Below the pieces are notes generated by a model. The model had not been told where the DNA came from, did no database searches, and saw nothing but the letters and a program-made list of their open reading frames with translations. From the NCBI RefSeq assembly GCF_001898805.1, contig NZ_MKVJ01000006.1, positions 11,861 to 75,860 of the forward strand: a stretch of DNA of 64,000 nucleotides, given 5' to 3'. The position numbers were made by a program, and so were the translations under genes. Below are positions 12,104 to 34,579 of the stretch, piece by piece (the first letter of the stretch is position 1; the number at the start of each line of letters is the position of its first letter). The stretch comes from Leifsonia sp. 71-9. GTDB taxonomy: Bacteria; Actinomycetota; Actinomycetes; Actinomycetales; Microbacteriaceae.

Positions 12104-13594
12104 TCAGAGCGCCGGGAGCCGGCTCTCCGGCGCGAGCAGACGCGGGAGCGCCCGCCAGATCCCGACGACGGCGAGCACGCACACCGCCACGAACAGCACC
12201 AGGAGCGCGATGGTGCCGCCCGGCGGCTGCCAGCCGGGGTCGTTGAGAAGGGCCACGTAGCTGCCGGAGCCGGTCGCGTACCGCAGCAGCGTGTAGAAGA
12301 ACGAGAGGAACTGGGCGATGGCCACCAGGACGATCGAGACCCGCAGCACGGAGACCACGTTGCGGGTGAGCCCCAGCGGGAAGCGGCGGTCGAGCGCGAG
12401 CCCCAGGAAGATGGTGGTCATCAGGAGCACGGCGAGCATGTACCGCCCCTGCCACACCCAGCCCACCTGGCGGAACAGGATGAGCTGCGTCACGACGGGC
12501 ACGACGAAGAGCGCGAGCCCGAAGCCCATCGCCACGTACCGCTCCCGCCCCCGACCGAGCACGAAGCCGCCGACGACGAGCGCGCCGAGACCGGTGACGA
12601 TGATCGAGAACACCGCCTCCGGCGCGACGACGTCGAGCCACCCGAAACTGCCGATCATCTCGCGCCAGTAGCCGAACGTCCGCTCCACCATGGTCTGGAA
12701 GACCGTCCACCGGCTCCCCGGCACCGGGTGCTCCAGCGCGTGGACCTGCGTCCCCGGCTGGGTGAACCAGAAGAGGGCGAAGGCCCCGACGACCGCGGTG
12801 AGCCCGACGACGACCCAGGTCGAGACCCGGCGCAGGATGGCCCGCCAGTCTTCGCGCCCCATCATCACGACGGTCACGACGGCCGCGAACACCAGCCAGA
12901 GCAGTCCGAGGCTCCGGCCGCCCGTCACGAGCGCGGCGGAGGCGACGGTGAGGGCTCCCGCCGTCCAGAGCACCCATCCCGTCGGCCGCTGCTTCGCGAG
13001 GGTGAGGAGACCGACGACGAGAGCACCCGCGGAGGTCATCTCCACGACGTTGGGGTTGACCCCGCCGCCGAGGAACAGGGCGGTCGGGGTGATGGCCAGG
13101 ACGGGCGCGAGCAGCGCCCAGCGCGAGCCCGGCCAGGTGCGCAGGAGCGCTGCGGTGAGGGCGAGCAGGGCGGCGGCGATGGCGCCCGAGAGGATGCGCA
13201 TGGAATAGAGGGCGACGTCGCCCGACGACACGAGGGTCGGCAGACCGACGATGAGGTAATACACCGGGCTGTTCGACCCGGCACTGGACGGCAGCGTCGT
13301 CAGCGCGTCCGGGTCCGCGACGTCGGGAGCCTTCTCGCACGCGGCCGTCACCGTCGGCTTGCCGACGAAGCAGGTGAAGCCGCCGGGGCGCGTGATGTAG
13401 TCGGGGACGTCGTAGCCCTCCGGGCCCTCGACGATCTGTCCCCGCACCGCTGCGGCCGCACGCACGATGTGGGACCCCTCGTCCGGGATGGAGTACAGCG
13501 GCGAGGCGAGCGACCACAGAGTGGTCAGCGCCACGACTGCGCCGAACACCGCCCCGAAGAATCCGAGCGGAAATCTCGGTGTCGTCCGTGCCAT
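12104..13594 (-). CDS. DUF2142 polytopic membrane protein (third paralogue)
   Basis: The 496-residue protein has about 11 hydrophobic segments. It shares landmarks with the two other DUF2142 proteins here: YSIPDEGSHIVRAAAAVRGQ in loop 1, a Cys pair near CFVGKPTVTAACE, GSFGWLDVVAPEAVF and WVWQGRYMLAVLL. The leader carries GGGAGGG about 8 nt before the ATG. It lies between two multi-domain glycosyltransferases on the same strand. Function is unknown; a GT-C-like or lipid-linked saccharide role is inferred from family context. Confidence 0.77.
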   Translation of the reverse strand: MARTTPRFPLGFFGAVFGAVVALTTLWSLASPLYSIPDEGSHIVRAAAAVRGQIVEGPEGYDVPDYITRPGGFTCFVGKPTVTAACEKAPDVADPDALTTLPSSAGSNSPVYYLIVGLPTLVSSGDVALYSMRILSGAIAAALLALTAALLRTWPGSRWALLAPVLAITPTALFLGGGVNPNVVEMTSAGALVVGLLTLAKQRPTGWVLWTAGALTVASAALVTGGRSLGLLWLVFAAVVTVVMMGREDWRAILRRVSTWVVVGLTAVVGAFALFWFTQPGTQVHALEHPVPGSRWTVFQTMVERTFGYWREMIGSFGWLDVVAPEAVFSIIVTGLGALVVGGFVLGRGRERYVAMGFGLALFVVPVVTQLILFRQVGWVWQGRYMLAVLLMTTIFLGLALDRRFPLGLTRNVVSVLRVSIVLVAIAQFLSFFYTLLRYATGSGSYVALLNDPGWQPPGGTIALLVLFVAVCVLAVVGIWRALPRLLAPESRLPAL

Positions 13595-13666: not shown

Positions 13667-16612
13667 TCACGGCGCGATCCAGGTCGGCGCCTCCGTGGGG
13701 ATCGCGTTTGTCTCGGGGTCGCAGAGGAAGTCGTAGATCCCGTCGAGCGCGGCATCCCAGTCCGAGTGGGCGCGGTCGATGGTCTCGACGCCCGCCGTGG
13801 CGATCCGGCGACGCAGCTGCTCGTCCCGGATCAGCTCGTCGATGCCGGCCACGACCTCCTCGACGGTCATCATGGTGGTCCTGGCGTTCTCCCCGCCCGC
13901 GAACAGCCAGCGGAACCAGGGCGAGTCCGGGACGACCATCGCGACACCGCTCGCCATGAGCTCGACCGGGAGGTACGAGGGATGCCGCGAGATCTGCATC
14001 GTCACCCCGATGTCGGTCCCGCGGTAGAGGCGCCCGGTCGCCCGGTAGTCCAGCAGCCCCAGGTCGATGAAGTCGGCGCTCGGCGGGAGGTACTTCGCGC
14101 CGGCCGCGACGATGCGCACGCCGTCGCCGTGGCGGCGCTTGATCTCGCTGAGCGCCGCGAACACCAGCTCCCAGCAGTTGCGGAAGTGGTCGCGCGCGTA
14201 CGCGAAGATCGTCACCGGATCGCCGGGAGCCCGTTCTTCGCGGCCCTCCGGATGGAAGATGCCGCGGTCGGCTGCTGGCGTGAAGTACGTCGCCGTCCCC
14301 TCGTAGCCGCCCGCGTAGATGTCGTGCATGCTCCGGGTGTTGCAGATCCCGTAGAGGCCGAGCCGGTAGGTCTGCTCCGTCATCGCGAACATGGTGCTGG
14401 CCGGGTAGAACGAGGGCTCGTAGTCCTGGACGAGATAGAACTTGCGCGTGTCCCCGGGAAGCTTGGCGACATCCCGCGCCGTGAGCCAGAAGGTGGCGAT
14501 GGCGGCGTCGGCGGGCGGGATGGCGGCGAGGCCCTCGTCGGTGCCGTAGTAGTTGTGCACCTCGGAGTCCGCGAGGGAGGGGAAGGCCGCCGCGATCGCG
14601 GACGCGTAGAACTCGTCGTTCGGGTGCCCGTTGACGAAGAACCGGTTGGCGACGCCGTGCTCGCGGTGGAGCTTGTCCGCGATGCGCAGCGCCGTGTTGA
14701 CGCCGCCGAAGAACGGCAGATCGAATCCGGGCAGCAGCCAGTTGACGGTCCGCACCTCCCGCCGGCCCGCGATGGAGGCGTGCGTCTCGCGGACGGTCGC
14801 CACCTCCGCGGCCGAGATCGAGGCGATCGGCAGCAGCGCGGTCGCGTCCTCGGAGATCGTGGAGCGCTGCGCGTCGGAGACGAACGGCCGGCCGAGCCCG
14901 GCGAGCGCCAGCTCCAGCGGGCTCGGGTCGTCGGCGGCGGCGAACCGGGGCACGGCGGAGAGCCGCGAGACGTTCGGGGAGATGTACGGGTCTCCCCCGA
15001 CGATCCACGGGTGGTAGCGCCAGTAGCTGGCGAAGGAGTCGGCCCGCGGGGCGTGGGCACCGCGCGTGAGCGACTCGAAGTGCCGCACCGCGTCGAAGGG
15101 GATGACCGCGTTGCGCCGGCCGCGGATGACCTGGTCGAGGCCGAGCACCACGTCGCTGCCGGTGAGCTGGAACCGCTCGTCGAAGCCGCCGACCTCCTCG
15201 AAATGCGTGCGCCGGATCGCGACGCAGGCCGCGGTGACGGCGAGGCTGTCGCGATACCAGGCCACCGGACCCATCAGGGAGTCCTCGTCCGGGCGCATGC
15301 CGGCGAAGAGGTTCGCCGCGAAGCCGCCCGGCCCGATCATGACGCCGCCGTGCTGCACCCGCCCGTCGGCGGTGCGGTGCTGGTAGCCGACGGTGCCGAT
15401 CCCGTCGCGCGAGAGCAGGCCGACCATCTCGCGCAGCCAGCCCGGGTCGACGATCTCGGTGTCGTCGTTGAGGAAGACGAGGACGTCGCCCTGCGTCGAC
15501 CGCGCGGTCACGGTGTTCACGCGCGAGTAGTTGAACGGGTCCTCCGTCCACCACACGTGGCGGAACGGCAGCCCGCTGCCGATCGCGGCGTACCAGTCGT
15601 CGTTCTCGGCCGACTCGCCTCCGTTGTCGACGACCGTCACATCGAAGGCCGGGTAGTCGGTCGTCGCCAGGCTCGGGAGCAGGCGCTCGAGGTTCGCCCG
15701 CGAGTGGCGGGTCGGGATCACGATCGACACGCTCGGCCACTCGGCCGGCTGGAAGCGCACGCGCACCACGCCGTCCACGACCTCGGCCTCGGCCCGCTCG
15801 CCCCGGGCGCTCAGCACAGCGGCGACCATCGCCGCGTCGGCCGCCCGCACCGGCGGGGTCGAGCCCTCGGGCTCCGAGAGCAGCACGTGCGGGATGAGAT
15901 CGACCGTCTCGTCCCCGAACTCGCCCGCCAGCAGCAGCCTCCACACGCCGTGATCGTCGACGGCGGCCGACGGCACGTCCCTCGCCAGGTCGACCCGGAT
16001 CGCGAAAGCACGGCCGAGGTAGTTGGCGCCCAGCATCATCTCCGGCGACCACTCCGGGCGGAAGCGCGGGGCGGTCCTGCCGCCCTCCGCGTCGAGCGTG
16101 TCGGAGTCGAAGGCCACGACCCGCAGCACGGGGTCCACCCGGTACTGCTTGGCGATCTGCTCCAGCGCGAGCGGCCGGAGCACCGATCCGGCGCGCAGGA
16201 ACAGCACGAAGTCCTCGGCCGCGCCCGCCAGCACGTCGCGCATCGGCGTACCCGACGGAACGGTCAGCACGCGCGCCGAAGCACCGCCCTGATCCTCGAC
16301 GCTGGCGATGGTGACGCGCTCGCGCTCGCGGGCGGCGTCGTCGGGGTCTCCGGCCGTCTCGATCACGACGACGAACGCGGCGTCCACGCTCGTGGGGAGC
16401 GGCTCGAGCGGCGGCTGCTCGGCCAGCCACTCGGCGTAGTCGGCGAGGCCGGGCCCCTCGCGCACGGGTTCCGGTTCGGGGGTCCGCGGCCAGACGCCGT
16501 CGCGGAAGGTGCGGGCGGCGTCTTTGCCGGCTCGCAGAGTCTTTCCGGCCGCCGTCTCGGGAGCGAGGACCTTGCGCACTGCGCGCTGGGCGTCGTCCAT
16601 CCAGGAAGTCAT
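13667..16612 (-). CDS. Three-module glycosyltransferase: degenerate GT2, GT2, GT4
   Basis: The product has 981 residues. Residues about 65-280 look like a worn GT2 module: FVLFLRAGSVLRPLALEQIA stands where a DXD would be, and WSPEMMLGANYLG is typical of such modules. Residues about 290-560 are an intact GT2 module (SIVIPTRHSRANLERLL; VLVFLNDDTEIVDPGWL). Residues about 615-970 are a GT4-like module (NWLLPGFDLPFFGGVNTALR; LPVELMASGVAMVVP). Such proteins build repeating wall or O-antigen glycans at the cytoplasmic face. The ATG at 16612 is chosen because TACACT ends 7 nt upstream. It is divergent from the gene at 16676. Confidence 0.85.
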   Translation of the reverse strand: MTSWMDDAQRAVRKVLAPETAAGKTLRAGKDAARTFRDGVWPRTPEPEPVREGPGLADYAEWLAEQPPLEPLPTSVDAAFVVVIETAGDPDDAARERERVTIASVEDQGGASARVLTVPSGTPMRDVLAGAAEDFVLFLRAGSVLRPLALEQIAKQYRVDPVLRVVAFDSDTLDAEGGRTAPRFRPEWSPEMMLGANYLGRAFAIRVDLARDVPSAAVDDHGVWRLLLAGEFGDETVDLIPHVLLSEPEGSTPPVRAADAAMVAAVLSARGERAEAEVVDGVVRVRFQPAEWPSVSIVIPTRHSRANLERLLPSLATTDYPAFDVTVVDNGGESAENDDWYAAIGSGLPFRHVWWTEDPFNYSRVNTVTARSTQGDVLVFLNDDTEIVDPGWLREMVGLLSRDGIGTVGYQHRTADGRVQHGGVMIGPGGFAANLFAGMRPDEDSLMGPVAWYRDSLAVTAACVAIRRTHFEEVGGFDERFQLTGSDVVLGLDQVIRGRRNAVIPFDAVRHFESLTRGAHAPRADSFASYWRYHPWIVGGDPYISPNVSRLSAVPRFAAADDPSPLELALAGLGRPFVSDAQRSTISEDATALLPIASISAAEVATVRETHASIAGRREVRTVNWLLPGFDLPFFGGVNTALRIADKLHREHGVANRFFVNGHPNDEFYASAIAAAFPSLADSEVHNYYGTDEGLAAIPPADAAIATFWLTARDVAKLPGDTRKFYLVQDYEPSFYPASTMFAMTEQTYRLGLYGICNTRSMHDIYAGGYEGTATYFTPAADRGIFHPEGREERAPGDPVTIFAYARDHFRNCWELVFAALSEIKRRHGDGVRIVAAGAKYLPPSADFIDLGLLDYRATGRLYRGTDIGVTMQISRHPSYLPVELMASGVAMVVPDSPWFRWLFAGGENARTTMMTVEEVVAGIDELIRDEQLRRRIATAGVETIDRAHSDWDAALDGIYDFLCDPETNAIPTEAPTWIAP

Positions 16613-16619
16613 CCGGATC

Positions 16620-16625
16620 AGTGTA
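16620..16625 (-). promoter_or_regulatory. -10 hexamer TACACT, predicted leaderless start
   Basis: TACACT on the - strand is followed by 7 nt and then the ATG at 16612. Transcription should begin at or next to the start codon, with no ribosome-binding site. Confidence 0.55.
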
Positions 16626-16650
16626 GCCGCGGGCGCCTCCGCGCCGCCCG

Positions 16651-16656
16651 TAGACT
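16651..16656 (+). promoter_or_regulatory. -10 hexamer TAGACT for the GT at 16676
   Basis: TAGACT is followed by a 19-nt stretch carrying GGAGG (16666-16670), placed 5 nt before the GTG at 16676. This start therefore has a short conventional leader, unlike the divergent gene. Confidence 0.45.
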
Positions 16657-16675
16657 GGACCTTCTGGAGGCGCGT

Positions 16676-17752
16676 GTGAGATTGGCGATGACCCTGATGG
16701 TCCGGGACGAGGCCGACATCGTGGGGGCGATGCTCGACCACCATCTCGGGCAGGGTGTGGACACGATCATCGTGACCGACAACGGCTCGGTGGACGGTAC
16801 CGCGGAGCTGCTGGCGGACTACGAACGGCGCGGGCTCATCGAGCTCCGGCACGATCCCGAGCACCGCAAGCAGCAGAGCCCCACGGTCACGCGGATGGCG
16901 CGCGACGCGGCCACGGTCCACGGCGCCGACTGGGTGATCAATGCGGACGCTGACGAGTTCTGGCTCCCGCAGACGCCGGGCCTCACCCTCAAGGAGGCGT
17001 TCGAGCGCATCCCCACGGACATCCAGGCGTTCCCGGTCCCCGTCCACGACATGATCGGGCCGGCCGCACTCGCGGGAACCGGCCTGCAGCGGCTCGCCTA
17101 CCGCGACCTGCGCACGGTCGAGCAGCTGCGGCGCGTCGGGCTGCGCGCCCACGCCACCGACGACGTCGCCCACGTCGGAAGCGCCGATGTCGAGGTCGTG
17201 CAGGGCAACCACTACGTGAACCTCGAGAACCGCGGCCCCGTGCCGGCCGGCGCCGGGATCGAGGTGCTCCACTTCCCCTGGCGCTCCTGGGCCCAGTACA
17301 GCCGCAAGGTGCGCAACGCGGGCAGCGCCTACGAGAACTCCGAGCTCACGCCGAGCCCCAACCATCACGGGATGCGCGACTACCGCCGGCTGCTCGACGG
17401 CGTGCTGCTCCCCCTCTACCTGTGCCGCCATCCCGACGAGGACGAGCTGGCGGCCGGCCTCGCGGACGGGACCTACGTGCCCGACCGCCGGATCGCCGAC
17501 ACCGTGGCCTCCCCGGTCGCCGACGAACCGCTCACCGCGTCCGCCGGCGACCAGCGCCGGATCGGTCTCGCGCTCGCCGACCTCGACCGCCGGGTCGCGG
17601 AGGCGGAGGAGCGCGCATCCCGAGCCGAGAGCGCCGCCGCCGAGGCCCACGACGACGCGCACCGGGCGCACGAGGAGCTCGGCCGGCTGTCCTCGCGCAA
17701 GATCGTCCGCCTCACCGACCGCGCCGCGCGCCTGCTGCGACGCCGGGGCTGA
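16676..17752 (+). CDS. Glycosyltransferase family 2-type (Glyco_tranf_2_4-like) with C-terminal coiled coil
   Basis: The 358-residue product starts with GTG and reads VRLAMTLMVRDEADIVGAML, followed by IIVTDNGSVDGT and the metal-site motif WVINADADEFWLP. This DADEFW pattern is characteristic of the GT2_4/GT92-like group rather than classic GT2. Residues about 300-340 are heptad-like and rich in Ala/Glu/Arg (RRVAEAEERASRAESAA), suggesting a coiled coil for oligomerisation. It is divergent from the three-module glycosyltransferase. Sugar specificity is unknown. Confidence 0.82.
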   Translation: MRLAMTLMVRDEADIVGAMLDHHLGQGVDTIIVTDNGSVDGTAELLADYERRGLIELRHDPEHRKQQSPTVTRMARDAATVHGADWVINADADEFWLPQTPGLTLKEAFERIPTDIQAFPVPVHDMIGPAALAGTGLQRLAYRDLRTVEQLRRVGLRAHATDDVAHVGSADVEVVQGNHYVNLENRGPVPAGAGIEVLHFPWRSWAQYSRKVRNAGSAYENSELTPSPNHHGMRDYRRLLDGVLLPLYLCRHPDEDELAAGLADGTYVPDRRIADTVASPVADEPLTASAGDQRRIGLALADLDRRVAEAEERASRAESAAAEAHDDAHRAHEELGRLSSRKIVRLTDRAARLLRRRG

Positions 17753-19308: not shown

Positions 19309-20208
19309 ATGACAGCACAGGATCGATACCGCGCGCTCGCGACCGAGCGCATGGTGGCGGTCAGCGGCGACGACAGCTCGAGCGGTTCGTGGGCCTCCCT
19401 GCGTGACATCCTCCGTCACCGCGAGCTCCTCTCCCTGCTGGTCCGCCGCGATCTCAAGTCGCGGTACAAGGACAGCGTCCTCGGCTTCGTCTGGACCCTC
19501 GTCCGGCCGCTCACCCAGCTGCTCATCTACGCGATCGTCATCGGCAAGATCCTGAACGCGGAGCGCGGCATCCCCGACTTCGCGATCTACGTCTTCACCG
19601 GTCTGACCGTGTACGGACTGTTCAGCGAGATCATCAGCGGGACGACGGCCTCCATCGTCGGCAACGCCGGGCTGATCAAGAAGATCTACCTGCCGCGCGA
19701 GATCTTCCCGCTCGCCAGCGTCGGCTCCGCGATCTTCAACTTCCTCATCCAGTTCGCGATCCTGCTCATCGCGACCATCGTGATCGGCAAGCCTCCGCTC
19801 CACGCGGAGACGTGGTACCTCATCCCCTCAGTCCTCCTGCTGCTGGTCTTCGGCACGGCCTTCGGCCTCCTGCTGTCCGCGGTCAACGTGTACCTGCGCG
19901 ACGTGCAGTACCTCGTGGAGGTCGTCCTCCTGCTGCTGCTGTGGGCGTCGCCGATCGTCTACTCGTGGACCATGGTCCGGGACGCCCTCGGCCACTCGCT
20001 GGCGCTCGACATCTACACGGACAACCCGGTGACGCTCGCCGTCCTCGGGTTCCAGAAGGCGATGTGGGTCGGCGGCCAGGGCGTCGCCGAGTACCCCGAC
20101 CAGCTGCTGCTCCGCATGGGCATCGCCTTCGTGATCGGCGTCGTCCTCCTCTTCGGCTTCCAGCGGGTCTTCTCCCGGCTGCAGGGCAACTTCGCGCAGG
20201 TGGTGTGA
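19309..20208 (+). CDS. Polysaccharide ABC exporter permease (Wzm/TagG type)
   Basis: The 299-residue protein is an ABC-2 permease. A cytoplasmic N-terminal arm ends in LLSLLVRRDLKSRYKDSVLGFVWT, the amphipathic motif of Wzm/TagG proteins. Six hydrophobic segments follow from about residue 65. These permeases form the membrane channel that moves undecaprenyl-linked glycans or teichoic acids outward. The ATPase gene starts 2 bp downstream, giving a complete Wzm-Wzt pair. Its place among glycosyltransferases supports export of the polymer made here. Confidence 0.9.
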   Translation: MTAQDRYRALATERMVAVSGDDSSSGSWASLRDILRHRELLSLLVRRDLKSRYKDSVLGFVWTLVRPLTQLLIYAIVIGKILNAERGIPDFAIYVFTGLTVYGLFSEIISGTTASIVGNAGLIKKIYLPREIFPLASVGSAIFNFLIQFAILLIATIVIGKPPLHAETWYLIPSVLLLLVFGTAFGLLLSAVNVYLRDVQYLVEVVLLLLLWASPIVYSWTMVRDALGHSLALDIYTDNPVTLAVLGFQKAMWVGGQGVAEYPDQLLLRMGIAFVIGVVLLFGFQRVFSRLQGNFAQVV

Positions 20209-20209
20209 G

Positions 20210-21469
20210 ATGACGACCGACACGACTCTGACCGGCACGACGCCCGACGAGGCGGATACGCCCGAGATCGTCCGGGTGACCGACGTCTCGAAGCGGTTCG
20301 TGATCCGCAAGGACAACTCACTGAAGGAGCGGCTCGTCTCGTTCGGCCGCGGCAAGGAGCACCGCGAGGAGTTCTGGGCGCTCGACGACGTCAGCCTCAC
20401 CATCCGCGCCGGCCACACCGTGGCCCTGATCGGCCACAACGGCTCGGGCAAGAGCACCCTGCTCAAGGTCATCGGCGGCATCATCGACCCGACGTCCGGC
20501 AGCGTCGCGCGCCGCGGACGCATCGCGGCCCTCCTCGAGCTGGGCGCCGGATTCCACCCCGACCTCACCGGCCGCGAGAACGTCTACCTCAACGCCTCCA
20601 TACTCGGCCTCACCCGCGAGGACACGGAGGAGCGGTTCGACGAGATCCTGAGCTTCTCGGGCATCGGCGACTTCATCGACACCCAGGTCAAGTTCTACTC
20701 GTCCGGCATGTACGTGCGGCTCGCGTTCGCCGTCGCCGTCCACACGGACCCGGATCTGCTGCTGGTGGACGAGGTGCTCGCCGTCGGCGACGAGGCGTTC
20801 CAGCGCAAGTGCCTGGACAAGATCCGCTCCTTCCAGGAGGAGGGCCGGACGATCATCCTGGTCACCCACAACCTCAGCCAGGTCACCGAGCTCGCCGACC
20901 GCGCCATCCTGCTCAACCGCGGCGCGGTCGTCTACGACGGCGAGCCGGGCGAGGCCGTGACGGAGTTCCGCAACATCCTCGAGGGCCGCCGGGTCGTCGA
21001 GGCCGAAGCCGAGGCGGCCGTCCAGGCGGCCAAGCACGGCGAGCCGACGGTCACCGAGCACGGCCGCGTCCTCGAGGCCCGCGCCTGGGCCGAAGGCCGC
21101 GACCCGGGCGACCCGGTGCAGCCGGGCGACGACCTGCGCATCGAGGTCACCCTCGAGCACGACACCGGCATCTCCGACTGGATGTGCGCGATCCAGATCG
21201 ACAACACGCTCGGTCAGCCCGTCTACGGCACCACGACGCTGCGGATCGGGGCCGAGTTCCCCACCCTGCGCGAACGGCGCACGGTCGGCTTCGTGCTCCG
21301 CGACGCGCGGTTCGGCGCCGGCAAGTACTTCGTCAACGCCTCCCTGATGGACAGCGCGGGCCGCCACCTCTCGGACGTCCCGCAGGCATGCTCCTTCGAT
21401 GTGCCGTACTACCCGCTCGCCGTCGGCATGGTCCACGCGGTCCCCGAGGTGCTCGACCTCTCCTCCTGA
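20210..21469 (+). CDS. Polysaccharide ABC exporter ATPase with C-terminal glycan-binding domain (Wzt type)
   Basis: The product has 419 residues. Residues about 20-260 form the nucleotide-binding domain, with Walker A GHNGSGKST, signature YSSGMYVRLAFAVA and Walker B LLLVDEVLAVGDEA. Residues about 285-415 (RIEVTLEHDTGISDWMCAIQ onward) form a beta-rich domain like the Wzt C-terminal region, which binds the capped end of the glycan before export. The extra domain suggests coupling of export to a chain terminus, as in O9a-type systems. It pairs with the adjacent permease. Confidence 0.9.
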   Translation: MTTDTTLTGTTPDEADTPEIVRVTDVSKRFVIRKDNSLKERLVSFGRGKEHREEFWALDDVSLTIRAGHTVALIGHNGSGKSTLLKVIGGIIDPTSGSVARRGRIAALLELGAGFHPDLTGRENVYLNASILGLTREDTEERFDEILSFSGIGDFIDTQVKFYSSGMYVRLAFAVAVHTDPDLLLVDEVLAVGDEAFQRKCLDKIRSFQEEGRTIILVTHNLSQVTELADRAILLNRGAVVYDGEPGEAVTEFRNILEGRRVVEAEAEAAVQAAKHGEPTVTEHGRVLEARAWAEGRDPGDPVQPGDDLRIEVTLEHDTGISDWMCAIQIDNTLGQPVYGTTTLRIGAEFPTLRERRTVGFVLRDARFGAGKYFVNASLMDSAGRHLSDVPQACSFDVPYYPLAVGMVHAVPEVLDLSS

Positions 21470-23148: not shown

Positions 23149-25236
23149 TCAGCAGGGGCGGAACGAGTCCAGGTCCGCGGACAGCGCCGCGGTCCCGCCG
23201 ATCAGCACGACCTTCGTCGCGCGCATCGTCACGATGTCGTTGCCGATCTGGCGCGGCAGGCAGCCTCCCGGTGAGACGAACAGCGGGGCTTTCGCGGCCC
23301 CGGCGAGCGTCGAGCCGGACAGCGCGTCGGGGAAGTCGATGCCGGAGGCGATGTAGACCGTCCCCGACGTCGGGAACGCCTTCACGTTGACCAGGTGGCT
23401 GGTCTCCCAGCGGTCCGCTCCCCCGATGCGGGTGACGGCGACGCCCGCTTGCTGCAGCGACGTGTCGAAGGCCGAGGCCACGGCGTTCGATCCTCCCACC
23501 ACCGTCGCGGACGTGATCTTGGCGGCCGCGACGTAGGCCGCCGTGCCCGCGTCCGCCGCGCCGTAGCCGGTGACGAGGATCATCGGCCGCCCGGCGGTGC
23601 CGGCGGCGGAGGCGGCCGACAGCGCGTCGGGGAAGTTCAGCCCCGAGGCGAAGTAGGCGCCGGTGGCGGTGGGGAACGCGTAGGCGGCGAGGGCCTGCGC
23701 GGTTGCGAAGCGGTCTCCGCCGGATATCCGCACGGTGTTCGGTTGCACGCCCGCGAGCGTGGCGATCACGGGATCGGCGATCACCGCGGTCCCGCCCACC
23801 ACGACGATCTTCTGCGGCTTGAGGCGCTTCACCTCGTCGAGGACGGGTCCGGGCAGGGCGCCTCCGGCGGTCAGCAGCAGCGGTCCCTTCTGGGCCGCTG
23901 CGGCGGCGCTGGCGGCGATCGCGTCGGGGAAGCTCACGCCGGACGCGATGTAGACGACCGGGACACCGGGCGTCGGGTACGCCGCCTTGGAGACCGCGGC
24001 GGATGTCGTCCATCGGTCCGCTCCCTGCACGCGGGAGGTGGCCGGTGTCCCCGACCCTCCGACCGCCGAGGAGTAGAAGGCCGACTTGCAGCCGAGGTCC
24101 GCCGTCGCGGCGGGATTGCCGCCCACCGGGAGGGCGGTGACACAGGCGAGGTACTGGCCCTCGCCGGTGCGCGGCACGCTGGCCGTGAACCCGTGGTTGG
24201 GGCCGGCGAGCGGGTAGGCGCCGCCGACGTCCGGGCGGCTCCCGTTCGCGGTGACCGTCTGCGTCGTGACCCCGGATGGCGTGTTCCAGGTGATGCGGAC
24301 GGACACCGCCGACTGCATCGCGGCGCGGTCGATGGCCCAGCCGGCGATGCCGAAGGTCGACGCGTTCAGCGCCGCGGACTCGAAGTTGCCGATCGGCGGG
24401 ACGACGCCGACCGTCGGACCGAACCAGTCGGTGTACAGCCGCCAGAAGTTGCGGTTGCCGTAGGCGGAGCAGGCGTCGCCCGTGCCGTAGAGGTTGGCGA
24501 GCGCCGCGGCGTTCGGCTGGTACGGCGTGTAGTAGTAGAGGGCCGCGGTCGCCGCGTTCTGGATCAGGACGTTCGACGAGCCGCAGGAGGCCGTCGGGCT
24601 GTAGCGCACCGGCACGGTGCCTCCGACCGGGTACCAGGTGAAGTACTGGCTGGTGCCGGGCGGGTTGCCGTACCTCTTGAACTGCCAGGCGGCCATGTAG
24701 ACCTGGTTGTAGAACCCGAAGTACTGGGCGTCGCAGGCGGCGGTGTCCGGGCAGGCGAAGCCGGTCGCGATCTTGTACTGGCCCGCTGTCGGCCAGGTGT
24801 CGGAGACGAGGCTCTGCTCCTTCTCCAGGAGCACGAGGAGCGTCTTCTGGCTGATCCCGCAGGCGGCGCCGACGCGGTAGATGATCGTCGCGGCGGACTC
24901 GTTCGCGGCGCCCGTGTACGCACCGCACATCGCGTCCGCGGCACGGGTGGTGGTGGACTGCCGGTAGTCCTTGAGACAGGTGTAGCCGGCGCGGCAGGCA
25001 TCCACCTTGCTGTTGAGGAAGGACTGCACGCCGTCGGCCGAGAGGGCGCCGCCGTTGTAGAAGTTCTCGTCGCTGATGATGTAGCCGGGCTTGAACTCCG
25101 AGCCCACCGCGGTGCGCACCGGCCCGGCGGCGGAGGCCGTCGGAGCCGTCGCCGGAACGACGGAGAAGGTCAACGCGATCGCCAGAGCGACAGCGAGGAT
25201 CATGGCGGCGCGCGCCCGAACGTGGCCGATCAACAT
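23149..25236 (-). CDS. Secreted cell-wall-binding-repeat (PF04122-type) protein, long form
   Basis: The product has 695 residues. An N-terminal signal peptide (hydrophobic AAMILAVALAIALTFSVV, then small residues to TASAAG) directs export. Residues about 40-275 form a Cys-containing domain with TLLVLLEKEQSLVSDTW, shared with the protein at 26885-28738. Residues about 280-380 (IAGWAIDRAAM) are unique to this copy. Residues about 395-695 hold three cell-wall-binding type 2 repeats, each with an R-x-x-G-x-D-R-W/F core (GADRWTTSAAVSKAAYP) and ASGxxFPDA. These repeats bind wall glycans. The ATG at 25236 is chosen because TAAGCT ends 7 nt upstream. Confidence 0.85.
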   Translation of the reverse strand: MLIGHVRARAAMILAVALAIALTFSVVPATAPTASAAGPVRTAVGSEFKPGYIISDENFYNGGALSADGVQSFLNSKVDACRAGYTCLKDYRQSTTTRAADAMCGAYTGAANESAATIIYRVGAACGISQKTLLVLLEKEQSLVSDTWPTAGQYKIATGFACPDTAACDAQYFGFYNQVYMAAWQFKRYGNPPGTSQYFTWYPVGGTVPVRYSPTASCGSSNVLIQNAATAALYYYTPYQPNAAALANLYGTGDACSAYGNRNFWRLYTDWFGPTVGVVPPIGNFESAALNASTFGIAGWAIDRAAMQSAVSVRITWNTPSGVTTQTVTANGSRPDVGGAYPLAGPNHGFTASVPRTGEGQYLACVTALPVGGNPAATADLGCKSAFYSSAVGGSGTPATSRVQGADRWTTSAAVSKAAYPTPGVPVVYIASGVSFPDAIAASAAAAAQKGPLLLTAGGALPGPVLDEVKRLKPQKIVVVGGTAVIADPVIATLAGVQPNTVRISGGDRFATAQALAAYAFPTATGAYFASGLNFPDALSAASAAGTAGRPMILVTGYGAADAGTAAYVAAAKITSATVVGGSNAVASAFDTSLQQAGVAVTRIGGADRWETSHLVNVKAFPTSGTVYIASGIDFPDALSGSTLAGAAKAPLFVSPGGCLPRQIGNDIVTMRATKVVLIGGTAALSADLDSFRPC

Positions 25237-25243
25237 ATCGCCG

Positions 25244-25249
25244 AGCTTA
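25244..25249 (-). promoter_or_regulatory. -10 hexamer TAAGCT, predicted leaderless start
   Basis: TAAGCT on the - strand is followed by 7 nt and the ATG at 25236. The upstream 60 bp are unusually AT-rich for this genome, consistent with a promoter. Confidence 0.55.
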
Positions 25250-25386
25250 GCCAACCCTGTGCAAACATTTCACGCTCAAACGCAAGAAACCTGCGCGGAT
25301 CAGCTCTCCACATCCCGCGTTCTGCGCCGCGGGCGCGGGGATGCGCGATTTCTCGTCACCCCCGGATTGGGGTCACCCCGACGGGC

Positions 25387-26253
25387 TCACTGCGCGTCGA
25401 GCAGCTCGTTCAGGTAGGTGCCGTAGCCGCTCTTCACCAGCGGCTGGGCCAGCGCCCGCAGCTGCGCGTCGTCGATCCAGCCGGCGCGCCAGGCGATCTC
25501 CTCGATGCACCCGACCTTGAAGCCCTGGCGGTCCTCGATCACGCGCACGTACTCGGACGCCTGCATCATGGACTCGAACGTCCCGGTGTCGAGCCACGCG
25601 GTGCCGCGGTCGAGCACCTGGACCTGGAGCGTGCCCGCCTCGAGGTAGCGCTCGTTGACGGTCGAGATCTCCAGCTCGCCGCGCGCGCTCGGGGTGATCG
25701 TCTTCGCGATCTCCACCACGCTGTTGTCGTAGAAGTAGAGGCCGGGCACCGCGTAGTTGCTCTTCGGCGCGGTGGGCTTCTCCTCGATGGAGAGGGCCGT
25801 GAAGTCCTCGTCGAACTCGACGACGCCGTACGACGTCGGGTTGCTCACGTGGTACGCGAAGATCAGGGCGCCGTCGATGTCGTTGTGGTTGCGCAGCGAG
25901 GTCCCGAGGCCGGCCCCGTGGAAGATGTTGTCGCCCAGCACCAGCGCCACCGACTCGTCGCCGATGAACTCCTCGCCGATGACGAACGCCTGGGCGAGGC
26001 CGTCCGGCGACGGCTGCACGGCGTACTCGAGCCGGATCCCGAGGTCGGAGCCGTCGCCCAGGAGCGCCTTGAACTGCTCGTTGTACTCGGGCGTGGTGAT
26101 GATGAGGATCTCGCTGATCCCCGCCATCATGAGCGTCGACAGCGGGTAGTAGATCATCGGCTTGTCGTAGATCGGCATCAGCTGCTTCGAGATGCCCTTG
26201 GTGATGGGCCACAGCCGGGTGCCGGAGCCGCCGGCCAGGATGATTCCGCGCAT
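25387..26253 (-). CDS. rmlA: Glucose-1-phosphate thymidylyltransferase
   Basis: The 288-residue product opens [20 protein letters not shown] with [17 protein letters not shown], the RmlA nucleotide-binding signature; [14 protein letters not shown] and [12 protein letters not shown] follow. It makes dTDP-glucose from dTTP and glucose-1-phosphate, the first step to dTDP-L-rhamnose. It follows rmlC by 13 bp on the same strand. Length and motifs match the short RmlA form. A GC-rich inverted repeat lies just past the stop (about 25358-25378) but has no T-run. Confidence 0.96.
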
Positions 26254-26266
26254 GTTCCGGTGTCTC

Positions 26267-26875
26267 CTACTTCTTGTCGTTCAGCGTTGCGTAGAAGGCT
26301 CGCGCCGCCTCCCAGGTGGGCAGCAGACCCGAGGCGGCGGCCTCCGAGAGGCCGGGGGCCTCGGTGTCCTTCGGCGAGAGCAGCAGCTCCTCGGCCGGGA
26401 CAGGGAACTCCAGTCCGATCTCGGCGTCGAGCGGATTGATCCCGTGCTCGCGGGTGGGGTTGTAGACGTCGTTGACGAGGTAGCTGACCGTCGCGTCGTC
26501 CGTCAGGGCCACGAAGCAGTGCCCGATGCCCTCGGAGACGTAGATGGCCTTGCGGTCGACGTCGTCGAGGAGGACCGAGTCCCAGCTCCCGAAGGTCGGC
26601 GAGCCGACCCGGATGTCGATGGCGAAGTCGAGCACGGCACCGCGCGGGCACATCACGTACTTGGCCTGGCTCGGCGGGATGTCGGCGAAGTGGATGCCAC
26701 GGACCGAGCCACGACGCGAGACGGACGTGTTGCCCTGCTTGAGGTCGAGCGAGTGCCCCACCGCCTCCTCGAGGCGGTCGAACCGGTAGAACTCGAAGAA
26801 GAGTCCGCGGTCGTCCTGGTGCTGCTGCGGGGTGATCTCGTACGCGTCTGGGATGGAGAGTTCTCGGATCTGCAC
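26267..26875 (-). CDS. rmlC: dTDP-4-dehydrorhamnose 3,5-epimerase
   Basis: The 202-residue cupin-type product has [32 protein letters not shown] and [19 protein letters not shown], with the catalytic His in RGIHF and the Tyr/Asp pair expected of RmlC. It epimerises C3 and C5 of dTDP-4-keto-6-deoxyglucose. The GTG at 26875 is preferred because a -10 TAGACT ends 6 nt before it. rmlA follows closely. The enzyme is complete. Confidence 0.95.
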
Positions 26876-26881
26876 CCGTGG

Positions 26882-26887
26882 AGTCTA
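26882..26887 (-). promoter_or_regulatory. -10 hexamer TAGACT overlapping the upstream stop codon; leaderless rmlC
   Basis: The first three bases of TAGACT are the TAG stop of the cell-wall-binding gene, and the GTG of rmlC follows 6 nt after the hexamer. rmlCA thus appears to have its own leaderless promoter. Confidence 0.55.
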
Positions 26888-28738
26888 CTGGCAGACGCTG
26901 AGCATACCCACCTGATCGGCGAGGGCGTTCGGCCCTCCGATCAGGTCGATCGTGCTGGAACGCAACGCGATCTCGGCACCCGGCGCCGCGATGCAGCCCG
27001 CGCGGCTCACGAGCAGGGGCGAGCCGATCTTCCCGGCGTACGCCGCGCCCGACAGTGCGTCGGGGAACAGCGTTCCAGAGGCGATGAAGGTGGCGGGCGT
27101 GGTGCCCGGGAAGGCGTCGGCGCTGACGGCGAAGCTCGTCGCGAACCGATCGCCGCCGCTCAGCCGCGTGACGGTGAAGCCCTGCGACTGGATGCTCGAG
27201 GCGTACTGCGCCGAGATGGAGTTGGCGCCGCCGACGATCTTGACGTTGGTGACGCCCAGCGCCTTGAGCTGCGCGACCGTGGCCGAATCGGCGTCCGTCA
27301 GGCCGCCGTTCACGAGGATGACGGGCGACCCCTTCGCACCGGCCGCGGCACCGGCGGAGAGCGCATCCGGGAAGTCGAGGCCTGAAGCGAGGTAGGCCGT
27401 GGCGACCGGAGCGGAGAAGGCGTTCGCGGCGATCATCCTCGACGTCTCGAAGCGGTCCCCGCCGCCGATCCGCTCGATCGGCGCGACGGTCTGAAGCTGC
27501 GCCGCGGCGTCCGGGCCGACGGAGTTGACCCCGCCGGCGATATAGATCTTCTGAGGCTTCAAGCGCTGGAGCTCGGTCATGATCGACGCGGGGACGCCGT
27601 ACTGGAGCACGAGCAGCATCGGGCCGCCCAGCTTGACGGCGGCCGGCGCCGCGCCCAGCGCATCGGGGAAGGAGAGGCCGTTGGCGACGTAGACCGCCTT
27701 CACCCCGGCCCCCGGGTTCGGGTAGGCGGCAGCCGAGATGGCCGCGGAGGTCGCGAAGCGGTCGCCGCCGGAGATGCGCGCCGTGGCGGGCACGCTGCCC
27801 GCCGTCGAGTCGCCGTACCAGGCGTTGAACAGCATCCAGAAGTTGCGGATGCCGTAGGCCGAGCAGTCGTCGCCCTCGCCCGGGTAGGAGGCGAGCGACG
27901 CGGCGTCAGGGGTGTACGGCGTGTAGTAGTAGAGAGCGGCGGTCGCCTTGTCCTGGATGGCGACCTGCTTCGACCCGCAGGTCGCGTCGAGGTTGTAGCG
28001 CACCGGGGACACCTTGCCGACGGGGAACCAGTTGAAGGAGGGGTCGATGCCGTACTGCTTGAACTGCCAGGCCGCGCCGTAGACCTGGTTGAAGAAGCCG
28101 GTGGCGTCCGGCGTGGAGTTGCACCCGGCATCCGTGTCGGGGCACAGCCAGCCGGTGGCGTGGTCGTACATCCACTGCGTCGGAGCCGACGTGGTGACGA
28201 GGCCCTGCTCCTTCTGGACGAGCGAGACGAGGACGACGGGGTTGATGCCGCAGGCGAGGCCCACCTCGGCGAAGATCTGCGCGGCCGTCGCACCGACGCG
28301 TCCCGCGTAGGCGGAGCACGCGGCGTCGGCCGCCTTGGCCGGCGTCGTCATCGTGAACGACTTGAGGCACGTCGCCCCGGTGCAGCTCGCACCTTTCGTA
28401 GTGAGGAAGGTCTGCAGCTGGGTCGCCGTCCACGCGTCGCCCTTGAAGAACACGGCGTCGCTGACGAGGTTGCCGTCCACGAACCGCGACGGGTCGTCCG
28501 CCGAGGCGTAGGCCCTGGCCTCGCCTGCGAGCCCCGCCTCGACGTTCGCCTGCAGCTGCGCGTCCGTCGGCGTGGTGCCCGCCGCACGCTCTGCCAGCGC
28601 CGCGTAGTACTGATCCGCCTGCCCCTGCGGGTCGTCGGCCGCGGCAGCGGCCGGCGCGACGAGAGCGGCGCCGGCGATGGCGACGACGACGGACACGACG
28701 ATGGCTCGGGCGCGAGCCCGGTTCCCCCCAAAACTCAT
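26885..28738 (-). CDS. Secreted cell-wall-binding-repeat (PF04122-type) protein, short form
   Basis: The product has 617 residues. It starts MSFGGNRARARAIVVSVVVA with a signal peptide ending near APAAAAADD. Residues about 80-305 form the Cys-containing domain shared with the protein at 23149-25236, including NPVVLVSLVQKEQGLVTT and AAWQFKQYG. Residues about 315-617 are three cell-wall-binding type 2 repeats (ISGGDRFATSAAISAAAYP; SGLDFPDALSAGAA). It lacks the extra middle domain of its paralogue. The shared domain may be lysozyme-like with Glu in KEQ as a candidate catalytic residue; that is unproven. Confidence 0.85.
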   Translation of the reverse strand: MSFGGNRARARAIVVSVVVAIAGAALVAPAAAAADDPQGQADQYYAALAERAAGTTPTDAQLQANVEAGLAGEARAYASADDPSRFVDGNLVSDAVFFKGDAWTATQLQTFLTTKGASCTGATCLKSFTMTTPAKAADAACSAYAGRVGATAAQIFAEVGLACGINPVVLVSLVQKEQGLVTTSAPTQWMYDHATGWLCPDTDAGCNSTPDATGFFNQVYGAAWQFKQYGIDPSFNWFPVGKVSPVRYNLDATCGSKQVAIQDKATAALYYYTPYTPDAASLASYPGEGDDCSAYGIRNFWMLFNAWYGDSTAGSVPATARISGGDRFATSAAISAAAYPNPGAGVKAVYVANGLSFPDALGAAPAAVKLGGPMLLVLQYGVPASIMTELQRLKPQKIYIAGGVNSVGPDAAAQLQTVAPIERIGGGDRFETSRMIAANAFSAPVATAYLASGLDFPDALSAGAAAGAKGSPVILVNGGLTDADSATVAQLKALGVTNVKIVGGANSISAQYASSIQSQGFTVTRLSGGDRFATSFAVSADAFPGTTPATFIASGTLFPDALSGAAYAGKIGSPLLVSRAGCIAAPGAEIALRSSTIDLIGGPNALADQVGMLSVCQ

Positions 28739-28744
28739 GATCGC

Positions 28745-28750
28745 AGACTA
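28745..28750 (-). promoter_or_regulatory. -10 hexamer TAGTCT, predicted leaderless start
   Basis: TAGTCT on the - strand ends 6 nt before the ATG at 28738. It is divergent from the rmlB promoter. Confidence 0.55.
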
Positions 28751-28823
28751 CCCCGGCGCCCCGGCCTCACCGCAAGAGCGCCGGCGCATCGGCCGCTGCG
28801 GAGCCTCTCAGACAGCGAACCGG

Positions 28824-28829
28824 TAGACT
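28824..28829 (+). promoter_or_regulatory. -10 hexamer TAGACT for rmlB
   Basis: TAGACT on the + strand lies 45 nt before the ATG of rmlB. The leader contains AGGCAGG as a weak ribosome-binding site. Confidence 0.45.
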
Positions 28830-28874
28830 CGGCGCGGACATTTCTCGCTCTTTCTCTAGGCAGGCCAATCCCTC

Positions 28875-29864
28875 ATGAAGATTCTCGTCACCGGTGGCGC
28901 CGGCTTCATCGGCTCCAACTTCGTCCGTCGCACGCTTCAGGACGCCTACCCGGGCCTCGAGGGCGCCGAGGTCGTCGTGCTCGACGCGCTGACGTACTCC
29001 GGCAACCTCGCGAACCTCGCCCCCGTCGCGGACTCCCCGCGCTACACGTTCGTCAAGGGCGACATCCGCGACGGCGCGCTGCTGGACCAGCTCTTCCCGA
29101 CGGTGGACGCCGTCGTCCACTTCGCGGCCGAGTCGCACGTCGACCGCTCGGTGCGCGACGCGTCGATCTTCGTCGAGACGAACGTGCTCGGCACGCAGCA
29201 GCTGCTCGACGCAGCCCTGCGCAACGACCTCAAGCGCTTCGTGCACGTCTCGACCGACGAGGTCTACGGCTCGATCGCCGAGGGCTCCTGGGCCGAGGAC
29301 CGCCCGCTCGAGCCGAACTCGCCGTACTCCGCGTCGAAGGCCGGCAGCGACCTCCTCGCCCGCAGCTACTTCCGCACCCACGGCCTGAACCTGTCGATCA
29401 CGCGCTGCTCGAACAACTACGGCCCGTACCACTTCCCCGAGAAGGTCATCCCGCTGTTCGTCACCAACCTCATCGACGACAAGCACGTCCCGCTCTACGG
29501 CGAGGGCAACAACATCCGCGACTGGCTGCACGTCGACGACCACACCCGCGGCATCGCGATGGTGCTCGTGGGCGGCCGCGCCGGCGAGATCTACAACATC
29601 GGCGGCGGCACCGAGCTCACCAACAAGGAGCTCACCCAGCTGCTGCTCGACGCGACCGGGAAGGACTGGTCGTACGTCGACCGCGTCGCCGACCGCCTCG
29701 GCCACGACCTCCGCTACTCGGTGGACATCTCGAAGATCCGCGACGAGCTCGGCTACGAGCCGCAGGTCCCGTTCCAGCAGGGCCTCGCGGACGTGGTGCA
29801 GTGGTACCGCGACAACCGCGCCTGGTGGGAGCCGCTCAAGGCCCGCGCCGCGCTGGACGCCTGA
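28875..29864 (+). CDS. rmlB: dTDP-glucose 4,6-dehydratase
   Basis: The 329-residue short-chain dehydrogenase has the NAD-binding GGAGFIGSN, the signature VHVSTDEVYGS, and the catalytic Tyr-x-x-x-Lys in SPYSASKAGSDLL. It converts dTDP-glucose to dTDP-4-keto-6-deoxyglucose, the second step to dTDP-L-rhamnose. rmlD follows 11 bp downstream. It is divergent from the cell-wall-binding gene, so rmlB/rmlD and rmlC/rmlA are on opposite strands around that gene. Confidence 0.96.
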   Translation: MKILVTGGAGFIGSNFVRRTLQDAYPGLEGAEVVVLDALTYSGNLANLAPVADSPRYTFVKGDIRDGALLDQLFPTVDAVVHFAAESHVDRSVRDASIFVETNVLGTQQLLDAALRNDLKRFVHVSTDEVYGSIAEGSWAEDRPLEPNSPYSASKAGSDLLARSYFRTHGLNLSITRCSNNYGPYHFPEKVIPLFVTNLIDDKHVPLYGEGNNIRDWLHVDDHTRGIAMVLVGGRAGEIYNIGGGTELTNKELTQLLLDATGKDWSYVDRVADRLGHDLRYSVDISKIRDELGYEPQVPFQQGLADVVQWYRDNRAWWEPLKARAALDA

Positions 29865-29875
29865 GCGCCGACGCC

Positions 29876-30754
29876 ATGACGCGCTATCTCATCGCCGGGG
29901 CCCGCGGCATGCTCGGCCAGGACCTGCAGCGCGCGCTGGAGGGCCGCGATGTGACGGCCCTCGGGCGCGCCGACCTCGACGTGACCGACCGAGACGCCGT
30001 GCTGGCGGCTGTGGCCGGGCACGACGTCGTGATCAACGCCTCCGCCTACACGAAGGTCGACGACGCGGAGACGCACGAGGACGAGGCCTACGCGATCAAC
30101 GCGACCGGCACCGAGAACCTCGCCGTCGCCGCCGAGCACCACGGGGCGAGGTTCGTCACCGTGTCGACCGACTACGTCTTCGACGGGCAGGCGACCGAGC
30201 CGTACGCGGAGGACACCCCGCGCGATCCGCTCAACGCCTACGGCCGCACCAAGGCCGCCGGCGAGGAGCTCGCGCTGGCCGCCCACCCGGACGGCACCTA
30301 CATCGTGCGCACGGCCTGGCTGTACGGCGCAGGCGGCCCGAACTTCGCCAAGACCATGGTGAAGCTCGCCGCCGTCCACGAGACCGTCAGCGTCGTGGCC
30401 GACCAGATCGGCCAGCCGACGTGGACGGGCGACCTCGCCGCGCAGATCGTCGCCCTCCTGGATGCGGACGCTCCCGCCGGCATCTACCACGGCACGAACT
30501 CCGGTCGCGCGTCGTGGTTCGACTTCGCGAAAGCGGTCTTCAGCAGCGCCGGATTGAACCCTGATAGGGTCACACCGACCGACAGCTCGACCTTCGTGCG
30601 GCCCGCAGCACGACCTGCTTTCTCGGTGCTCGGTCACGAGGCCTGGCGTGCAGCCGGCCTCGAGCCCATGCGGGCGTGGGAGGCAGCATTGGCCGACGCA
30701 GCGCGTCACGGAGTCCTGGAGCAGAATGACAACCCTCAGGGTGGTGATCGATGA
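29876..30754 (+). CDS. rmlD: dTDP-4-dehydrorhamnose reductase
   Basis: The 292-residue product has AGARGMLGQDLQRAL for NADPH binding, VSTDYVFDGQ, and the catalytic YGRTKAAGEELA (Tyr-x-x-x-Lys). It performs the last reduction to dTDP-L-rhamnose. The last 29 bp overlap the start of the next glycosyltransferase, so translation is coupled. Length is normal and nothing is missing. Confidence 0.94.
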   Translation: MTRYLIAGARGMLGQDLQRALEGRDVTALGRADLDVTDRDAVLAAVAGHDVVINASAYTKVDDAETHEDEAYAINATGTENLAVAAEHHGARFVTVSTDYVFDGQATEPYAEDTPRDPLNAYGRTKAAGEELALAAHPDGTYIVRTAWLYGAGGPNFAKTMVKLAAVHETVSVVADQIGQPTWTGDLAAQIVALLDADAPAGIYHGTNSGRASWFDFAKAVFSSAGLNPDRVTPTDSSTFVRPAARPAFSVLGHEAWRAAGLEPMRAWEAALADAARHGVLEQNDNPQGGDR

Positions 30755-33220: not shown

Positions 33221-34579
33221 CTACTTCGCGGTCGGTTTCGGCGACGCCGGGGCGACCGCCTGCTGCACGAGCTGGTGGATCTGCGCGTAGTCCGGATTCG
33301 TCGGGTCGATCGTGGGCGGCACGAGTTCGAGCTGGTCGACGGGGAGCTTGCGCGTCTTCATCCCGAGGTCGACGAAGTACCCGAGCATCGACTGCGGGAT
33401 GTCCGTCTTCATCACCTGGGAGCCCGCCTTGGCGATCCCCTCGAACTTGCTGACCACGTTCACCGGGTTGACCTGCTTGAGGATGGCGTCCTGCAGCTGA
33501 CGCTGCCGCGCCATCCGGTCGTAGTCGCTCGACCCGTGGCGTGCTCGGGCGTACCACTGGGCGTGGTAGCCGTCGAGATGGCGCTGACCGGGCTCGATCC
33601 ATTCGACGACGCCGTTGAGATCCTCGTCGCCGCCGATCGGGATGCGGTCCGTCACGGTGATGTCCACGCCGCCCAGCGCGTCGACGAGATCGGCGAAGCC
33701 CTGCATGTCGATCAGCACGTAGTACTGGATGGTCAGACCGGTCGCGCCCTCGAGCGCATCCCGCATCGCCTCGATCCCGGGCTCGCTCTTGTTCTTCGTC
33801 GCGTTCGGGTAGAGGTCCTTCTTGTAGGTCTCGACCTCGGTGTAGATGGAGTTCAGCTGGCAGACGTCGACGTCGCAGCGGTCCTCGTAGCCGTAGCCGT
33901 CGGGGTAGAGCGCGTGGAGCGGCGAGTGCTGCGTGAACGGCACCGGGTTGAGATCGCGCGGGAGGCCGATGGTGACCGCCTTGCCGGTCGAGGCGTCGAT
34001 GCTGACGACGGACATGCTGTCGGGGCGCAGGCCGTCGCGATCGGGTCCGGCGTCGCCGCCCAGCAGCATGATGTTGTACCGGCCGTCGACCGGCGGCTCC
34101 GACGGACCGGCCGAGAAGATGTCGCCCAGCGCGCCGCGGGCCGAGCCGGCCACGACGGAGGCGTACCCGGCCGTTCCGGTCAGCCCGACGAGCACGACGA
34201 CGGCGAAGGCGGCGATCAGCCCGCGCGCCCTCGAGGTCGTCTTGACCAGACGCACCAGCCGCAGCGTGTCGAGCGTGAGCACGACCCACAGCACCGCATA
34301 GAGGACGAGGACGATCTGCAGCACGGTCAGGCTGCCCGCCTGGGTGGCGACGGTGTAGATCGTCGCGGGCGCGACCAGGTACACGACGAGGGCGACGATC
34401 GCGAGCAGCCACAGCAGCCCGGTCGCGATGAGGCCGATCCGGCCGAGCCGCCGGTTGCCGGCGACGACCTGAGCCGATCCGGGCAGCAGGACGTTCATCA
34501 GGACGAGCCACCAGCCGCGCCTGGTCATGACGGGCGCGGACGAGGCGTCCGGATGACGCAGCGGGCTGGTCGGGTTCAT
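33221..34579 (-). CDS. LytR-CpsA-Psr (LCP) family protein
   Basis: The 452-residue product has several N-terminal hydrophobic segments (residues about 22-155), more than the single anchor of most LCP proteins. The LCP domain starts near residue 185 ([20 protein letters not shown]), with Arg/Asp residues that bind polyprenyl pyrophosphate and [14 protein letters not shown] enzymes ligate glycopolymers from undecaprenyl pyrophosphate to peptidoglycan. This one overlaps the purE stop (ATGA) and adjoins the glycan locus, so it is a good candidate to attach that polymer. Confidence 0.9.

Follow-up and report, generated by a model that had tools for sequence, protein, structure and literature searches.

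The genome of Leifsonia sp. 71-9 raises the question of why two similar cell-wall-binding proteins, which share an unassigned Cys-rich domain, flank genes for the synthesis of a wall sugar, rhamnose. The two proteins, here called A and B, are encoded in a stretch of 64,000 nucleotides (positions 11,861 to 75,860 of contig NZ_MKVJ01000006.1, assembly GCF_001898805.1), which we call the window. The shared domain is referred to as the KEQ domain after a short motif in it. Our analysis suggests that the KEQ domain is probably the catalytic head of an unnamed family of peptidoglycan glycosidases with a lysozyme fold, nearest to family GH73, and that A and B would be anchored in the wall, probably docked on the polymer made by the neighbouring genes.

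Protein A is encoded on the minus strand in an open reading frame (ORF) at 23149-25254, which has 701 codons when counted from a TTG; the ATG at 25236, six codons inside this ORF, seems the likelier start. It contains a signal peptide, the KEQ domain (residues 54-279; 24418..25095), a domain named GWAID (24058..24402) and three cell-wall-binding type 2 (CWB2) repeats (23149..24033, with motifs at residues 408, 509 and 609). Protein B (26885-28738, minus strand, 617 aa) consists of a signal peptide, the KEQ domain (residues 86-309; 27812..28483) and three CWB2 repeats (26885..27778, with motifs at residues 321, 423 and 525). The signal peptides of both proteins were assigned by eye. A and B align with 41% identity across 563 columns (1e-88), which is far beyond chance. 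Between their genes, and on the same strand, lie rmlA for glucose-1-phosphate thymidylyltransferase (25387..26253; PF00483, 3.4e-74) and rmlC for dTDP-4-dehydrorhamnose 3,5-epimerase (26267..26875; PF00908, 1.5e-54). A preliminary description of this DNA, made from its letters, had presented A and B as paralogues that bracket rmlA-rmlC, and this is confirmed. The same is true for the three CWB2 repeats in each protein: PF04122 matches A and B at 5.3e-43 and 1.9e-43, in three stretches per protein, with scores of 145.9 and 147.3 bits compared to a Pfam gathering score of 24.9.

The finer features ascribed to the shared domain were found as well. The aromatic stretch AAWQFK is located at residue 188 of A and 222 of B, and YYYTPY at residues 240 and 270. 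Both KEQ domains contain eight Cys, at positions 87, 93, 110, 132, 168, 174, 224 and 262 of A and 119, 124, 141, 163, 199, 206, 254 and 292 of B. GWAIDR, the mark of the extra domain of the longer protein, occurs at residue 305 of A and is missing from B. The KEQ motif itself (residue 145 in A, 176 in B) does lie on a helix, but it sits at the C-terminal end of this helix (residues 98-109 of the structural model described below) and not in its middle, as the term "KEQ-centred" had implied.

Searches of Pfam, NCBIfam, PHROGs and the sequences of the PDB gave nothing significant for the KEQ domain, in agreement with the claim that this region of about 225 residues lacks a family assignment. Phage and plasmid records gave no match; among viral contigs 26 stretches carry a pattern, and one of these encodes a relative, near the end of its contig. 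A literature search, which covered titles and the beginnings of abstracts, found no paper describing the domain. Of 210 relatives we kept the best 80, which are located in 78 loci; the alignment used below, which includes both copies from the window, has 80 sequences. The closest named relatives of the KEQ domain of A are from Leifsonia (80% identity), and most of the 78 loci belong to Microbacteriaceae by title. A third copy in the same genome is found on another contig (G000:C1:332647-333411) as a stand-alone short ORF of 285 aa. The ORF of this third copy (L003:1429-2286, minus strand) adjoins genes which, by eye, resemble those for a sensor kinase and a response regulator.

The alignment identifies a small set of residues which never vary. 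In the numbering of the model, C55, C72, C94, C136, C186, C224, K107, E108 and D132 are present in 80 of 80 sequences, while C130 is kept in 79 and C49 in 69. A stricter comparison is possible with eight distant relatives, which come from families of the phylum other than this one. Most of the Cys are missing from them and K107 is substituted in one, whereas E108, D132 and G127 are kept in all eight. A ninth weak match (G137, L096; E 9.9e-4), with six in-frame stops, was left out of this set. A profile built from the eight recovers the three copies of the Leifsonia genome at 7.3e-33, 7.7e-28 and 7.2e-24. E108 corresponds to Glu146 of A (24817..24819, minus strand), the candidate catalytic acid, with Glu177 of B (28208..28210, minus strand) as its counterpart; D132 corresponds to Asp170 of A (24745..24747, minus strand), a candidate second carboxylate. 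In the tree the KEQ domain of B forms a long branch (1.41) whose placement lacks support, yet both the Glu and the Asp are retained in it.

Next we consider the predicted structure. The AlphaFold2 model of the KEQ domain of A has a mean predicted local distance difference test score (pLDDT) of 93.6 and a predicted template modelling score (pTM) of 0.90, and E108 is near the end of helix 98-109. When this model was compared with known structures in VIA-align, the top row was LytB, a GH73 enzyme (Z 9.1, root-mean-square deviation 3.3 over 145 of 252 residues), followed by phage lysins, MltF, MltC and a GH73 autolysin. Judged by title, enzymes of the wall or of chitin make up 28 of the 32 listed rows; the others are two phage structures and two plant NLRs. 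A Z of at least 5 was reached by 13 of 124 realigned chains, values inside the range of which the tool warns for helical models. Goose-type (g-type) lysozyme is not among the listed rows, an absence that carries no weight. According to PMC4633669, a Glu close to the C-terminus of a helix is common to GH73 and the families related to it.

The position of this Glu was compared in six rows, those in which the aligned part of the model begins at residues 64-83. If the alignments are ungapped, residue 108 falls on the catalytic Glu in Slt35 (two rows), SltB1 (4anr) and gp144, which is Glu162, Glu135 and Glu115, respectively, in the available parts of the papers on these enzymes. The preliminary description had proposed a lysozyme-like fold with a Glu after a hydrophobic helix, and the confident model, the mostly wall-glycosidase neighbours, the invariant Glu and a weak profile match to GH73 all support it. 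It had also pointed to lytic transglycosylases as the structures to compare with; MltF, MltC, Slt, SltB and gp144 are indeed among the neighbours, but the top row is LytB of GH73. The MltC row would be the fifth fit of the six if its catalytic residue is Glu217, as we presume; a search of papers did not confirm this number.

Profile comparisons point in the same direction. The profile sets comprised 24 of 30 GH73 loci and 28 of 30 SLT loci, the latter from the same bacterial family. Aligned with the 24 GH73 sequences, the KEQ profile scored 27.4 (P 0.0032, weak when taken alone), with Glu opposite Glu. None of 120 column shuffles and one of 100 block shuffles scored as high, and the reversed alignment reached 10.7. 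The 28 SLT sequences gave no profile match to KEQ (hhalign P 0.25 and 0.66); 85 of 120 shuffles equalled or beat the real alignment, one of them with an unexplained score of 132.1. Taken together with the top Z of LytB, this makes GH73, and not the lytic transglycosylases, the nearest family by these measures. By eye, though not by alignment, YYYTPY or YRYTP ahead of the last helix resembles the YATD motif of GH73. In a separate scan of the whole Leifsonia genome, PF01832 (GH73) had no match and PF01464 (SLT) one weak place.

We then asked how widely the KEQ domain occurs. It was detected in 139 of 150 genomes of the bacterial family (131 of 137 when the good genomes are counted), in 68 of 248 genomes of the order and in 15 of 396 of the phylum, one of the last being a broken hit. 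The search of the phylum with the distant profile found 14 of 396 and no branch beyond those already seen.

In this family the location of the gene differs between long and short frames. The linkage counts refer to the 150 best places in the family, with weaker ones left out, and to genomes which have either of two markers, RmlA or the ABC permease. The marker matches comprise all listed rows at a cut-off of 1e-60 in one search and below about 1e-50 in the other. An open frame of at least 450 aa served as a proxy for a multi-domain protein, and the chance level was calculated for frames placed at random in 3.2 Mb of genome. Of 112 long frames, 88 are found no more than 20 kb from RmlA or the permease (about 2.5 expected), compared to 2 of 32 frames shorter than 450 aa (0.7 expected). 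With one genome per genus, 46 of 53 long and 2 of 18 short frames are linked; among the seven long frames that miss, three are 24 to 36 kb away, and the contigs of the other four lack a marker. RmlA lies between the members in six of seven neighbouring pairs, two of which are from this genus and two from one other genus. The preliminary description had taken the placement of A and B among the sugar genes as a hint that they recognise or trim the polymer. The linkage recurs across the family and is absent from the short stand-alone members, so the hint is now stronger than a single locus can make it.

The KEQ head is combined with several kinds of modules. Pfam detected LGFP repeats in 18 of 69 rear parts, CWB2 in 8 (two are the window's own), LysM in 5 and SLH in 3. 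GWAID domains, which were counted with a motif expression, are present in 25 of the 78 loci, with one to five in each and mostly without CWB2; the combination of GWAID and CWB2 as in protein A occurs in three Leifsonia loci. The GWAID domain of A has no Pfam match. Its model (pLDDT 95.4) predicts a fibronectin III-like beta sandwich, with a best Z of 9.0 and many ties. We assigned each locus to one of five rear-module classes, including "alone" and "other", by motif expressions, which left 23 of 78 loci as "other" and found CWB2 in 5 loci, compared to 8 of 69 parts with Pfam. When these labels are mapped on a quickly built tree of the 80 KEQ domains, they need 21 changes (12 without "other"), against a mean of 45.9 after shuffling, and even if one counts just the branches with good support, each class requires two to four changes. 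The required changes indicate that the modules behind the KEQ head were swapped more than once; the number of swaps is unsure. In six loci of the Pontimonas type (L010-L012, L016, L024 and L026), BNR/propeller-like repeats seen by eye flank the KEQ domain on both sides, as if it had been inserted. One KEQ protein from a distant genus (L191:7767-8957, minus strand), the only one scanned, carries its KEQ domain behind a putative PcsB-type coiled coil (PF24568, 6.4e-6, below the cut-off of Pfam), a partner known from peptidoglycan hydrolases. The gene of this protein adjoins a response regulator and a histidine kinase, the latter assigned by eye.

From these data we propose the following mechanism. 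A and B would be secreted and held in the wall by their CWB2 repeats; A has a GWAID domain in addition. Glu146 of A and Glu177 of B would protonate a glycan bond of peptidoglycan, perhaps with help from the invariant Asp 24 residues further on. The probable docking partner of the binding modules is the polymer with rhamnose that the locus makes and exports; recognition of this polymer by A and B is plausible. Docking could confine cutting to wall which carries the polymer or is about to receive it. The enzymes might make room for insertion of the polymer, or they might serve in cell separation.

A number of results weigh against a GH73-like glycosidase and temper this proposal. Foldseek found no significant match to the KEQ model: the best E was 0.78 in the PDB and 0.055, for a tail lysin, among viral models. 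VIA-align cautions that a best Z near 14 can occur when a model is mostly helical and has no clear match, and for this reason the composition of the neighbour list carries more weight than Z. In the comparison of Glu positions, the range of starting residues was chosen after looking at the rows, the sixth row (SltB1, 5o8x) disagrees, and in Slt70 (1qte), where the alignment starts at 55, the position would be residue 481, three residues off Glu478. The Pfam models PF01832 and PF01464 had no match in the 80 KEQ members; over these members 15 families were tallied at E up to 1, and the best E of any was 0.042. HH-suite assigns the GH73 match a probability of about 10%, and a score of 28.0 was obtained from one block shuffle. 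Of the inner branches of the module tree 29 of 77 are open, and the match to PF24568, with 26.4 bits, is just under the Pfam cut-off of 27. A GH23-like lytic transglycosylase would have the same fold and the same Glu, would release a 1,6-anhydromuramic acid product and would need no second carboxylate. MltF, MltC, Slt, SltB and gp144 among the structural neighbours would suit such an enzyme, and YYYTPY could supply a Tyr that aids the Glu, as the accessible text on gp144 and Slt70 describes for these enzymes. It is nevertheless unlikely, because the top Z belongs to LytB, a GH73 glucosaminidase, the profile match is to GH73 with none to the SLT sequences of the same family, and such an enzyme would have no use for the invariant Asp at +24.

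The linkage to rmlA and the ABC-export genes across the family, together with the wall-binding modules, would also suit a domain that cuts or remodels the rhamnose polymer itself and so releases or trims its chains. The predicted fold makes such trimming less likely than cutting of peptidoglycan. The named glycosidase neighbours act on peptidoglycan or chitin by title, the short stand-alone members are located away from the locus, and one relative has the putative PcsB-type coiled coil. We regard a polymer-cutting domain as quite improbable. Least probable of all is that A and B lack enzymatic activity and are surface proteins built on a lysozyme-like scaffold that has gone dead. A Cys-rich head that sits on many kinds of display module, and the long branch of protein B, would be expected from such proteins; dead enzymes, however, tend to lose the catalytic acid, and E108 and D132 are unchanged in all 88 aligned sequences (80 + 8), protein B included. 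A peptidoglycan glycosidase nearest to GH73 stays the probable identity of the KEQ domain.

Upstream of rmlD (29870..30754, plus strand, start approximate; PF04321, 2.1e-91 in the ORF 28160-30754) lies rmlB for dTDP-glucose dehydratase (28875..29864, plus strand), which was named from its sequence and position without a family search; its ORF has close relatives (95-97%) in three Leifsonia loci. An ABC-2 permease of a presumed, Wzm-like polymer exporter (19309..20208, plus strand; PF01061, 7e-17) is followed by an ABC ATPase with a Wzt C-terminal domain (20210..21469, plus strand; PF00005 and PF14524). A LytR-CpsA-Psr protein, of a family that attaches wall glycopolymers, is encoded at 33221..34579 (minus strand; PF03816, 2.8e-24). 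The surroundings also hold an acyltransferase and several glycosyltransferases, one of them in an ORF with WsaF-like domains (13667..17671, minus strand; PF22772 and PF21374). From established knowledge of these gene families, the locus reads as one for the synthesis, export and attachment of a rhamnose-containing wall polymer. A DUF2142 membrane protein (PF09913) is encoded inside the polymer locus at 12104-13594 (minus strand).

The presence of the KEQ domain in 139 of 150 genomes of the family, combined with the lack of a Pfam match in 80 members, argues that it is likely an important wall enzyme in these bacteria. With its exchangeable modules and its linkage to export genes, it offers a natural experiment in the targeting of wall hydrolases to a particular wall polymer. 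A bolder version of this idea, which we consider doubtful, is that KEQ forms a separate glycosidase family and is a main wall enzyme of most Microbacteriaceae; it might open the peptidoglycan where LytR-CpsA-Psr proteins attach the rhamnose polymer, or even transfer the polymer to peptidoglycan, and the lineages might re-aim it by swapping modules to suit the polymer that each of them has.

The architecture of A and B has parallels in known systems. The KEQ head is like GH73, above all LytB of pneumococcus, in its predicted helical lysozyme-like fold with a Glu at the end of a helix. According to the available text of PMC4633669, LytB joins a GH73 head to a choline-binding domain, that is, to a module for a wall polymer, and this plan resembles that of A and B. 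In contrast to GH73, KEQ has no PF01832 match in 80 members, and it differs by its invariant Asp at +24, by the eight Cys that most of the 80 aligned members contain and by its other binding modules. With GH23 and the g-type lysozymes it shares fold neighbours (GH23) and the register of the Glu, but there is no match to PF01464 or to the SLT profile. In g-type lysozymes the Glu is followed by an Asp at a distance of 26 residues in mussel and 28 in cod (PMC3448621), compared to 24 residues in KEQ. The same order of signal peptide, catalytic head and three CWB2 repeats is found in Cwp19 of Clostridioides difficile, where CWB2 attaches via the polymer PSII, as the available text of PMC6016235 states. 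The head of Cwp19 is a GHL10 domain, unlike KEQ, and the polymer in Leifsonia is linked to rhamnose by its genes; A and B nevertheless share the overall plan of this wall-anchored enzyme.

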